From Deltaproteobacteria bacterium (GTDB lineage: Bacteria; UBA10199; SPLOWO2-01-44-7): 37,066 nucleotides of DNA. The stretch is taken from positions 1-37,066 of the forward strand of contig JAUSII010000008.1 in assembly GCA_030648035.1 (NCBI GenBank). Direction: 5' to 3'. The notes under the pieces are model-generated. The model searched no databases. It saw only the letters and a program-made list of their open reading frames with translations, and had not been told where the DNA came from. A program made the translations under genes and the position numbers. Shown in pieces: positions 1 to 15,923 of the stretch (position 1 is the stretch's first letter; each line of letters opens with the position of its first letter).

Positions 1-134
1 GTCTGCGCAGGCCCGCCACTCCCCTCGGGGGATTTTAAACTTGGCGGGCCGAGGAAGCGAAGTGCTGATTTTGGGGGCCTCCCCAAAATCTATAACGTCT
101 TTTTTAGCCAACACGCGGGAGCTTTTGCCGGTGT
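1..134. repeat. Nested palindromic element, copy 1 (left end outside window)
   Basis: The first ~100 bases match, in reverse complement, the interior of the element at 12126-12285: a GGCCCGCC-type stem around a CCCCTCGGGG core (about 11-50), then a second hairpin of the form ATTTTGGG...CCCAAAAT (about 68-89). In the other copy the second stem reads CTTGGGG/CCCCAAG, so both arms changed together and pairing is kept. The right end carries AGCTTTTG (120-127) followed by CCGGTGTCT, as in the other family members. The left end lies outside the window. It sits just upstream of typA and has no coding potential that I can see. Confidence 0.75.
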
Positions 135-214
135 CTGTTCCCTATAAGATTAATTTTCTTTTTAGAATTTTGTTTGTGTTTGCTCTACAATAATGCTTTA
201 AGCGGCAACCCTTT

Positions 215-12125: not shown

Positions 12126-12285
12126 CAAAAGCTGGGAGCGGAAAATATGATGCGCAACTCCCCACTACGCTTGGGGAGGCCCCCAAGCTCCGTTAGTTCC
12201 TCGGCCCGCCAAGTATAAAATCCCCCGAGGGGATTGGCGGGCCTGCGCAGTCGTTGCGCACCATATTTTCCGCTCCCAGCTTTTG
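12126..12285. repeat. Nested palindromic element, copy 2 (complete)
   Basis: Outer inverted arms of 33 bp (12126-12158 and 12253-12285) differ at one base. Inside are a hairpin GCTTGGGG-AGGC-CCCCAAGC (12169-12188) and a two-tier hairpin: GGCCCGCCA (12203-12211) with TGGCGGGCC (12235-12243), enclosing ATCCCC/GGGGAT (12220-12234). The interior is the reverse complement of bases 1-100. The ends carry AGCTTTTG facing outward. It follows the MFS stop by 18 bp and is followed by GCACGCG and a T7 run at 12294-12300, so it may also help end transcription. Confidence 0.9.
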
Positions 12286-12332
12286 AGCACGCGTTTTTTT
12301 GAACTATAAATTTTTAATTCGAAGTGTATGGC

Positions 12333-12507
12333 CAAAAGCTGAAAGTGGGCGGGAGAAAAAAGAGGTATGAGGCGGCCTGTCGGAGGCAATTTTACAAACG
12401 GGATATAAAGCCAAAATTGCCGAGACCGGAGCACCCATTTTGGGTCCGTCCCAAAATGAGGTACGTCCCCGAATACCCTTTTTTCTCCCGCCCACTTTCA
12501 GCTTTTG
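12333..12507. repeat. Nested palindromic element, copy 3 (different arms and interior)
   Basis: Outer inverted arms of 29 bp match perfectly (12333-12361 and 12479-12507) and end in the same AGCTTTTG as the neighbouring element, but the rest of the arm differs. Inside are GGCAATTTT (12385-12393) pairing with AAAATTGCC (12413-12421), and CATTTTGGG (12436-12444) pairing with CCCAAAATG (12450-12458). The element ends 52 bp before the ATG of the next gene. With copy 2 it fills most of the 452 bp gene-free stretch 12108-12559; I saw no coding sequence there. Confidence 0.88.
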
Positions 12508-12559
12508 ACGGTGTCTTTTTAAAAAGCAACTTTTCTGGGGGAGTGACGATAAGGGTTCC

Positions 12560-13639
12560 ATGATTTCTTTTATTCCGGTGGCCGAAAATATTGGGGCTTT
12601 TTCTGTGGCACGCGCCCAGGTTGCGGCTGTTGCGCAATTGCCCGATCAAGATTCTGCACTTTATTCAAGGGGGTCTATCGATCATAGCGACCTTTTTTTG
12701 TCTTTGGGTGCCGGGGCTCTGTCTCTGGGGCTTGGGTCTTATGGGTTGATTAAGTCCTGTCGATTTGTCCGTCGCAAAATAAATATCGGTGGAATTCTGC
12801 AGATGGGTGCAGATGTTCGCAATTGCAGAATGAAACTGATGGCGTTTGAAGATCCTTTGGAAGTTCTGCAAATAGCCTCTCTCAATTCCAAACGCGGCAA
12901 TACAGAAAAATTGTATCAGCAGACAAAAAATCAGCTGGCATGGTTGCGAGAAGCGGTTTTCACAATGAGATGGCAACAGTTTTTTATCACCAATCCGGAT
13001 GCCCCCATCAAACTCAAACTTGCCAGAGAGGGTGGATCGGACAAAACAATAAGGCCGAGAGAGTTTTTGAAATCGTTCGATAAAAATTTTACAGAGGTGC
13101 AACAGGGATGGCAAAAACTTGTGGAGGCCAGTTCCATGGCCGCAATGCCGCCGCAGGAAGCCTTTTCTGAAGAGAGGCTCTATGCGATGCGGGCGCAATT
13201 AAGACAATGCGGGGCTTCTGTGACATATGTTGCCCTGCATCCGCTTTATGAAAACCCCCATTTGACGTGGGGTGTTCTGGAGACACTTCGTCAGAGTGAT
13301 CCGGTGATGTATCTCGATCTGGTGAAAACGTATCGCGATGATGAAAATATATGGTTCACCAATGTCAGCCTCATCGGAATCTGGATCGACCGTATCGGAA
13401 AAATTGTGGCGCGTGTCGACCGGTTGAAGGCCCGGGGGATAACAGAAACAAAATGGGTTGAGGCGCTGGCAGAGGTAGAACAGCATATCCTTGGGTTTCG
13501 CGCCGTGCTTGCGAAGAGCAATGATATCGATTCTCTTTTTATTCAGGCCGAGCGGGTGGTGATTGCCTACCGGACTCTCCTCCGTTTGAAAAAAACAGGC
13601 CCCAAACAGCAAACAACTTTTTTTGAAGTCTGCCGATAA
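12560..13639 (+). CDS. Unknown membrane-anchored helical protein, paralogue of the gene at 16003
   Basis: A 359-residue protein of no family that I recognise. One strong hydrophobic segment lies at about 46-66 (LFLSLGAGALSLGLGSYGLI), followed by a basic CRFVRRK stretch and then a mainly helical, charged region of nearly 300 residues. It shares an ordered set of matches with the protein at 16003-17544: LYQQTKNQL (118-126), a GW pair (183-184), HPLY (227-230) and DPVMYLDLV (247-255), with similar spacing. The positive-inside rule suggests that the helical part is cytoplasmic. Possible Shine-Dalgarno AAGGG at 12551-12555. The last ~57 bp recur as a degenerate copy at 15917-15975. Confidence 0.75.
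   Translation: MISFIPVAENIGAFSVARAQVAAVAQLPDQDSALYSRGSIDHSDLFLSLGAGALSLGLGSYGLIKSCRFVRRKINIGGILQMGADVRNCRMKLMAFEDPLEVLQIASLNSKRGNTEKLYQQTKNQLAWLREAVFTMRWQQFFITNPDAPIKLKLAREGGSDKTIRPREFLKSFDKNFTEVQQGWQKLVEASSMAAMPPQEAFSEERLYAMRAQLRQCGASVTYVALHPLYENPHLTWGVLETLRQSDPVMYLDLVKTYRDDENIWFTNVSLIGIWIDRIGKIVARVDRLKARGITETKWVEALAEVEQHILGFRAVLAKSNDIDSLFIQAERVVIAYRTLLRLKKTGPKQQTTFFEVCR
13583..13639 (+). repeat. Direct repeat, copy A (intact 3' end of the gene at 12560)
   Basis: CGTTTGAAAAAAA followed by AGGCCCCAAACAGCAA and CAACTTT, ending in CGATAA, is repeated at 15917-15975 with scattered differences and one extra A. Here it encodes the C-terminal residues RLKKTGPKQQ and onward. The two copies bracket the middle gene of the unknown cluster. 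Confidence 0.8.
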
Positions 13640-13907: not shown

Positions 13908-15923
13908 ATGGCGGGCGATATTCTTTTGATACCCGGTTTTCTCTCTGCACAATGGTGTGGTCCTGTTGCTGCGTTGGATGCCTGTGATGTATTGGCCGCC
14001 GTTTCCGCCTTGGAAACGGTGGAAGTTGCTGACGTGAAGAGTTCGACGGCTGCGGAAATTTTGCTGGCAAGGGCCAGAAGATTTTTGGACAAACCGATTA
14101 TTCCGGTCTGGATGCTGCCCAATCAGGGCCGGTCAATATCGGCCTTTGCCCCGATGGCGCAAACCGATGGCATCGTTGCAGGCCGTGTTTCCAATCTGGT
14201 TGCCGGTGCTTTGATGATGGCTGGAGGCAGAAATGATGGGAAATGTGGGGACTCTTCCCCGCGTGTGAAGAATGCGACATTGGAAAAAGCACTGGAGACG
14301 CATGGGGGAAGTCGGGCCAAAAATCGAGTCCCTTATAATGGAATTAGGGCCAATGACTCCTCGTATCCTGATAAAGGAATTGTTGGTGGAAATGAAAATG
14401 ACGATGGAATGTTTCATCATTCTATAAAAAATAGAGGTGGAGCCTATCTTGGAATCGGATCATCTCAAAATTACAAGCTTGCAGCCCATGCAAGATCTGA
14501 ACTTGTATTCATGATTGATGTGGGTGAGAATGTTTATCTTTCGCATGTTGTTATGAAAGGTTTATTCCTCATTAGTAATTCAACTGAAGATTTACAACAG
14601 AACTACGATCACCTGAAAGGTGGCAACAAGAGTGACTTAGTTTTGAGAATCAAAGCCGTTCTGTCTGAAGAAGAATTTTCTCAAATTTCTGCTTTCATTA
14701 AAAGTGACGAGGACGTTGGCCATAAACCCCTTTCTCAAGATGAATTTTCACACCTTAGATATTTGTTCCAGAATAATAGAATCATTCCTGTCAGATCAAA
14801 CCTGGATAATTCTCAAACATTTGCTCAAATAAGAACAGCTGTATCTGAGGCTGGATTAAAAATTGCAGTTGTCTATCTTACAAATGTCACAGAGCATGGG
14901 GATAGTTCTGATGTAAAAATAGATTATGATGTTTTTCGTAAAATGTTTGCTGACGATATTTTTAGTGATGATGGTATAGTTCTAAGAACTTCAATCAGAA
15001 CACCTCATGGATGTGCGTCTGGCCTTTTCGGTTACCAAGTAATAAATCAACAAAATCATAGAAGGCTGATCTCGCAAGCCGACACCATGATGGATTACAA
15101 TATGACATTCGTTGAAGCTGTATCGCGTCAATACCAAACAGATAATCCAACTGCTTCACGTTCAGAACCCTTTAAGATTACTCAGGCTGATATTCCACAA
15201 ACATCAGTATCAAGTGAAGATATCAAAAATAAAATACTAGATTTTGCTCGGTATGCAGAAAAAGCTACTTCAGATCCAAAAGACAAGCGTAGTTACCATG
15301 ACTACATGGTTTTTGCTTTGGGGAAACTAAAGAGTGTTGATTCCGCTTCGTATGATGGATTTGTATCAAATTATGTAAATTTACAACATCCATTGATTGC
15401 GGCATGTTATCTTGATCAGATTGCTGGCTCAGAAAATCAAAATTTAGGAAAAATCATTGGCAGGTTGCTAGATTTAAATGAAATCAACTCCATTACAGAT
15501 AAAGATTCTAGGGATTCTCTCACCTTCAGTTTATCTAAACTTGGAAGAGGTGACACTACTCAAGCAATGATCGATTATATGATCCAGTACCCCCAAGACC
15601 GTGGCCACATATTAGTGGGCATTTCAATAAACCCAGCGGCCATGGACAGTCGCAGAATTTGCTTAGTTATTGATGCTATTATTGGTCAATTGCCAAACCG
15701 TACAAATAGAGATGATATTGGATGGAGAATGACAGCGACAGAAACCTTAAAAAAAATAGTTAACGGCCAAGATCAAGCCGTCTATTGGAAATTAATTTCA
15801 CTTAGAAAGATGTTCGAAGAATTACAACCGATGAATTATCAATACAATCTTAGAGAGTTGGATGCCACCATAAGAGCATGTAATCCAGGAAAAAATCCAG
15901 ATGGAGGACGGAATTGCGTTTGA
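13908..15923 (+). CDS. Unknown chimeric protein with LIC_10091-like domain
   Basis: A 671-residue protein in two compositional parts. Residues about 1-140 are GC-rich like the neighbours, alanine/valine-rich and without recognised domain. From about nucleotide 14330 the DNA becomes clearly AT-rich. Residues about 175-370 resemble what I remember as the LIC_10091 type (predicted methyltransferase-like, function untested): GAYLGIGSSQNY (178-189), FMIDVG, the FSHLRYLFQNNRIIPV segment, VVYLTNV and VLRTSIRTPHG. The remaining ~250 residues look helical and possibly repeat-like. The stop lies inside the degenerate copy of the upstream gene's 3' end. Start ATG 13908 has no strong Shine-Dalgarno; a later start within the GC-rich part is possible. 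No membrane helix is clear. Confidence 0.7.
   Translation: MAGDILLIPGFLSAQWCGPVAALDACDVLAAVSALETVEVADVKSSTAAEILLARARRFLDKPIIPVWMLPNQGRSISAFAPMAQTDGIVAGRVSNLVAGALMMAGGRNDGKCGDSSPRVKNATLEKALETHGGSRAKNRVPYNGIRANDSSYPDKGIVGGNENDDGMFHHSIKNRGGAYLGIGSSQNYKLAAHARSELVFMIDVGENVYLSHVVMKGLFLISNSTEDLQQNYDHLKGGNKSDLVLRIKAVLSEEEFSQISAFIKSDEDVGHKPLSQDEFSHLRYLFQNNRIIPVRSNLDNSQTFAQIRTAVSEAGLKIAVVYLTNVTEHGDSSDVKIDYDVFRKMFADDIFSDDGIVLRTSIRTPHGCASGLFGYQVINQQNHRRLISQADTMMDYNMTFVEAVSRQYQTDNPTASRSEPFKITQADIPQTSVSSEDIKNKILDFARYAEKATSDPKDKRSYHDYMVFALGKLKSVDSASYDGFVSNYVNLQHPLIAACYLDQIAGSENQNLGKIIGRLLDLNEINSITDKDSRDSLTFSLSKLGRGDTTQAMIDYMIQYPQDRGHILVGISINPAAMDSRRICLVIDAIIGQLPNRTNRDDIGWRMTATETLKKIVNGQDQAVYWKLISLRKMFEELQPMNYQYNLRELDATIRACNPGKNPDGGRNCV

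Follow-up and report, generated by a model that had tools for sequence, protein, structure and literature searches.

A dispersed family of gene-less palindromic modules with a conserved three-way-junction fold, so far seen in one bacterial phylum

In this study we show that two neighbouring nested palindromes in a 37,066-bp contig from a Deltaproteobacteria bacterium (the window) belong to a dispersed, multi-copy family of gene-less modules, in which a three-way-junction fold on one strand is maintained through compensatory change. The window is contig 101 of the source genome (G000), a 2.39-Mb draft in 135 contigs, and C numbers below denote contigs. The modules are about 150-260 bp long, and a long outer stem closes a three-way junction with two hairpins, H1 and H2. 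In the canonical reading, with H1 first, an outer stem of about 30-45 bp leads to a short stem interrupted by a GNA/GA internal loop, then to H1 (9-bp stem; loop of roughly 20 nt with a conserved CANNCGGGAT), H2 (with a GGG/CCC tip) and the closing arm.

An inverted-repeat search of the window confirmed both palindromes, module A (160 bp, 12126-12285) and module B (175 bp, 12333-12507). The outer arms of A (12126-12158 and 12253-12285) have the 33 nt of the original prediction and are 97% complementary, while those of B (12333-12362 and 12478-12507) measure 30 nt instead of the predicted 29 and are 100% complementary. Folded as single DNA, on the strand tested, A reaches -64.6 kcal/mol (z = -12.5) and B -60.0 kcal/mol (z = -12.3), values equalled by none of 200 shuffles. 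B is canonical on the plus strand, where the core model places its H1 at 12385-12421 (GGCAATTTT / AAAATTGCC, loop ACAAACGGGATATAAAGCC) and its H2 at 12436-12458 (CATTTTGGG-TCCGT-CCCAAAATG). A is canonical on the minus strand, with H2 at 12169-12188 (GCTTGGGG/CCCCAAGC, from the fold and the core model) and H1 at 12203-12243 (loop containing CGGGGGATTTTATA, from inverted repeats and the fold), so that the window pair is inverted. A core model built without A and run on the window identified B with 104.5 bits (E 3.6e-25), and by this model its membership of the family is certain. The same model matched A weakly (E 1.2e-3); A on its minus strand has in common with B the H1-H2 order, the GGGAT loop motif and the GGG/CCC hairpin, and the weak match and the same order of parts tentatively suggest that A follows the plan of B.

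The interior of A is 88% identical to window positions 3-86, which makes positions 1-137 (plus strand) a third module, of S type with the A interior, cut by the contig start and ending in AGCTTTTGCCGGTGTCT; the core model matched positions 1-104 weakly (E 2.4e-4). A partial copy had been proposed at 120-137: it is real, but it is the end of this truncated module, of which near-identical copies occur in C43, C61, C104, C106, C115 and C127. The proposal that arms and interiors otherwise differ holds for the outer arms; for the interiors it holds only in part, given the 88% identity and the H1-H2 plan of A and B. The motif AGCTTTTG occurs nine times in the window against 2.2 expected (0 of 100 shuffles), and a motif search places it together with ACGGTGTCT at the outer end of B (12500-12516, plus strand). 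Downstream, positions 13908-15923 encode a 671-aa protein with a DUF7790 match, and a neighbouring 359-aa frame (12560-13639) had no Pfam match.

A palindromic linker can connect two modules, as it does in the window, and the resulting composite has terminal repeats AGACACCGACAAAA...TTTTGTCGGTGTCT. The order A, linker, B recurs with this linker in many places of the source genome, and the AT-rich linker of the window (12286-12332) recurs in composites of C17, C22, C88, C102 and C124. Complete composites with these terminal repeats, bounded by AGCTTTTG plus ACGGTGTCT and the inverse, lie at C61:5865-6250, C90:12654-13089 and C106:37169-37444. Pairs are mostly arranged H2-H1|H1-H2, with one same-orientation pair in C106. 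Several contigs of the draft end within modules, as would be expected if the repeats break assembly. In the left half of one composite (C106:37169-37310) the family end GACACCGACAAAAGCT is combined with a CCCCCCTTTTTCAAAGGGGGG hairpin as interior. Small extra palindromes are inserted in the H2 loop of two modules of another genome, G005 (L369:1537-1738 and L357:160-270; GGCTTGGC..GCCAAGC and GCAAATTC..GAATTTGC), and a similar-looking one lies within a module core at C26:29567-29796, giving palindromes nested in palindromes.

Sequence like A was found at about 19 places of the source genome and sequence like B at more than 30, and a covariance model of the inner core, built from 17 cores, detected at least 55 copies there; the element family of the original prediction is indeed dispersed and multi-copy. 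For the phylum, 46 genomes were searched, an identical set whether chosen by class or by phylum; the model matched 12 of them, with 53 copies in G002 and nine in G040, and none of 339 genomes outside the phylum. A scan of about 85,000 species with a degenerate H1 motif returned 16 stretches, and viral contigs gave no hit. The core model confirmed the stretches from MGRG and JAHFSU (Deltaproteobacteria bacterium RIFCSPHIGHO2_01_FULL_43_49 and nzgw604) and from SBBF (labelled Nitrospira sp. Bin_29_2_1); the others were weak or partial, those from other phyla scoring short or weak matches at best and L162 none. At the sensitivity used, the family thus seems so far to be confined to one phylum, which to judge by names may be GTDB UBA10199. 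No Rfam family reached its gathering score, and the weak matches, for example MIR6457 with 39 bits against a cut-off of 140, fall far below threshold.

Conservation extends beyond the ends alone to the inner core, a point absent from the original prediction. Among 103 distinct cores, both-sided change was seen in 28 of 29 pairs; in the core stems it accounts for 683 cells, one-sided change for about 28, and shuffles gave a mean of 157 both-sided cells (0 of 500). Shifting the partner by one column lowered the paired cells from 92.7% to 40-48%. These 103 cores were aligned by fitting to the model, and the MAFFT alignment A1 leads to the same result. The outer arms covary too when 20 G002 copies are aligned over their full length, whole modules having 1053 Watson-Crick pairs, 28 G.T, 8 A.C and 46 other combinations. 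The core fold is kept by compensatory change across 11 genera, between which the ends differ. Unpaired loops recur in the arms, GA/GA 28 times and G/GGTA 17 times over the set and most clearly in G002, whereas TC/TC is absent among the listed arm loops.

Isolated arm mismatches, read on the canonical strand, comprise 47 G.T against 15 A.C and 31 G.A against 4 C.T, counts that come from related copies and are not independent. The excess of G.T over A.C and of G.A over C.T implies that the canonical single strand matters, not any palindrome. Within the core, G.T makes up 1.8% of the pair cells, below the other mismatches, part of which trace back to two columns unlikely to be true pairs; the tRNAs of G003 (same genus) have 4.6% G.T and zero other mismatches. 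The orientations of neighbouring genes, taken from a simple open-reading-frame caller, are about even (29/29/28/21). Together the G.T counts and the random gene orientation favour, rather than prove, a folded single-stranded DNA, and on the G.T counts alone a folded RNA intermediate is possible.

Within a copy the two outer arms agree with each other, down to shared changes of length, but they differ from those of other copies. Arms of the 21 B copies of the source genome differ on average by 1.3 edits within a copy and by 6.5 between copies; 11 copies have identical arms, and in 17 of the 21 both arms have the same length (lengths 23, 24, 28 and 29 occur). Such matched length changes are hard to obtain by one-at-a-time mutation, which suggests that one arm serves as the template for its partner. 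Homogenised inverted-repeat arms, including multi-base changes, and maintained hairpins are known outcomes of template switching (PMC8604942, PMC8794818). Two B copies (C124:35863-36030 and C26:13735-13909) have clearly unlike arms of different types, as if recombined between copies. The conserved mismatched loops in the G002 arms would be erased by unrestricted arm copying, hence selection must act there as well.

Occupied and empty sites in close relatives, by which the original prediction could be checked, were found in G005 and G003, two species of the same genus. At five G005 loci (L221, L225, L228, L233 and L234) a module is present, and the corresponding G003 flanks abut or lie about 0-70 bp apart; the core model found no module at these five G003 places. 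The inserts consist of the palindrome alone, in G005 typically from AAGGANCCTCTGAAAAA to its inverse, and show no clear target duplication, the flanks being only 70-80% identical. Judged by this presence and absence, modules appear to have moved to new places, with precise loss in G003 possible site by site. The AAGGANCCTCTGAAAAA ends are common to G002, G004 and G005. In L349, L355, L379 and L380 the same repeat encloses GTCATTCC/GTCATCC-type palindromes, which replace the three-way-junction core; conserved ends with replaceable interiors, as had been proposed, are therefore supported. At L378:450-530 (G005:C168) a 69-bp perfect terminal-repeat hairpin with only part of a module right arm represents a deletion derivative. 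In the linker of mutL, G005 (L230:1476-1581) and G003 (L273:14129-14242) have modules of different subtypes at the same place, with the frame open in both, which recalls REPs and RPEs in genes.

Searches for a gene that might move the modules covered Y1 transposases, reverse transcriptase and genes between paired ends. The original prediction had called for a search for a transposase gene flanked by the same ends; our searches with the end motifs gave no gene enclosed by a pair of ends, and their best candidates lie within coding genes, i.e. are chance matches. A pair spaced by 2.2 kb in G040, considered as an autonomous element, consists of two independent modules with ordinary genes between them. 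Solo end motifs in C26, C92, C118, C10 and C18 are likewise chance, being located in long open stretches that hold no module, and so is the end-like match noted at a Y1 gene of G002:C13, which falls inside that gene. RVT_1 is absent from the carriers G002 (53 copies), G003, G004 and G012, so the distribution of reverse transcriptase does not follow that of the elements. In G003:C58 (L092) a small GIY-YIG-like open frame, read by eye, lies directly upstream of a module.

BOX elements are also modular, and we know of no bacterial MITE or Rickettsia palindromic element with the three-way-junction fold described here. With the bacterial MITEs (Correia, BOX, RUP, ERIC) and the Rickettsia palindromic elements the modules have in common that they are gene-less, intergenic and stably folded, with terminal inverted repeats; they are short, non-coding, multi-copy and apparently mobile, and some lie in frame inside genes, like RPEs (PMC10969869). 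We class them as MITE-like, although one usual feature, a parent transposon with the same ends, was not found, and the five occupied sites, with flanks only 70-80% identical, showed no clear target duplication; unlike in MITEs and RPEs, their arms diverge concertedly. Integron attC sites are recognised as folded single strands, their stems being variable in sequence and conserved in structure, as the modules may be too; by eye, no attC core sites (RYYYAAC/GTTRRRY) were noticed. The ends of IS200/IS605 elements resemble the modules in the same way (PMC8266576), although the modules have no TnpA association. Palindromes maintained by template switching resemble the modules in their homogenised arms, but they are local, whereas the modules form a dispersed family with a shared core.

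On this evidence we lean, with somewhat better than even confidence, towards a non-autonomous, gene-less mobile element, putatively recognised as a folded single strand by a protein acting in trans and with its arms matched by template copying. The protein supplied in trans might meet such an element as single-stranded DNA, for example on the lagging strand, and recognise it by its H1 loop, its internal G.A loops and its H2 tip. Insertion would be mostly between genes and without clear target duplication. Hairpin template switching, or self-templated synthesis during movement, could keep the arms complementary by copying one from the other, and arm sequences and lengths might then drift freely between copies. 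A bolder version takes the three-way-junction folded strand itself as the replicating unit of a structure-defined mobile DNA, which would move with the help of neither Y1 nor reverse transcriptase nor any recognisable transposon partner; in each round one arm would be the template for rebuilding its partner, leaving ends and arms free to vary while the fold persists. This we consider unlikely.

Other explanations have to be weighed against the mobile element recognised as a folded strand. An ordinary DDE transposon could mobilise the modules as its MITEs by binding double-stranded terminal repeats, the inner fold being an incidental passenger. Terminal repeats common to the copies (in the case of AAGGANCCTCTGAAAAA to three genomes) and able to enclose unrelated interiors are what it would lead one to expect; however, a core fold conserved over 11 genera with compensatory change and strand-specific loops, while the ends differ between genera, speaks against it, as do the lack of a clear target duplication at the five sites and of a gene with these ends in the end-motif searches, and we hold it to be rather improbable. 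A conserved structured RNA, regulatory or involved in processing and spread by duplication, would account for covariation as strong as in known RNAs, for the conserved loops and for the arm excess of G.T over A.C. It is hard to reconcile with the few G.T pairs relative to tRNAs and to the other mismatches, the even gene orientations, the absence of an Rfam family at gathering score, the occurrence in only 12 of 46 phylum genomes and the absence from the same sites of a congener, which leaves it a slightly smaller chance still.

Movement by Y1 transposases, proposed originally by analogy with REP/BIME elements, would make the modules REP/REPIN-type elements. REPs are single hairpins of 20-40 bp tagged GTAG or CGTC (PMC3733652). 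Like the REPINs or BIMEs mobilised with RAYT (TnpA-REP), the modules are small foldable palindromes, dispersed in 50 or more mostly intergenic copies and often paired in inverted orientation, and compensatory stem changes have been reported for REPINs too (PMC3116915, PMC3733652); CAGGTAGCC, present in many G002 arms, contains GTAG, and Y1 genes are common in the phylum. However, the modules have 150-260 bp, a three-way junction and the ends CAAAAGCT/AGCTTTTG, and in the source genome no GTAG adjoins the stem of A or B. Y1_Tnp is absent from the source genome (55 copies) and from G040 (nine copies); Y1 genes occur in 38 of the 46 phylum genomes regardless of modules, with 10 each in the module-free G025 and G044, and at 20 Y1 loci of G001-G005, which belong to the taxonomic family of the source genome, the nearest 1.5 kb or so contain no module. 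As neither the tag nor a RAYT association was found, we do not class the modules as REP or REPIN, and movement by Y1 seems very improbable. Passive palindromes without a mobile unit of their own, arising from template switching during replication or by nesting in hairpin loops, would explain homogenised arms and maintained hairpins, and the extra palindromes in the H2 loops of L369 and L357 fit this origin. A shared core in more than 50 dispersed copies and inserts missing from sister sites are left unexplained by it, and we regard it as the least probable of these accounts.

In conclusion, the family characterized here is unlabelled in Rfam, numbers roughly 200 elements over the genomes searched, so far in one phylum, and has a structure-conservation signal that is very strong for non-coding DNA. 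With length changes matched in both arms, the modules offer a natural test of how long palindromes stay perfect. They also bear on whether bacteria mobilise folded single strands by systems beyond Y1 transposases and integrons.
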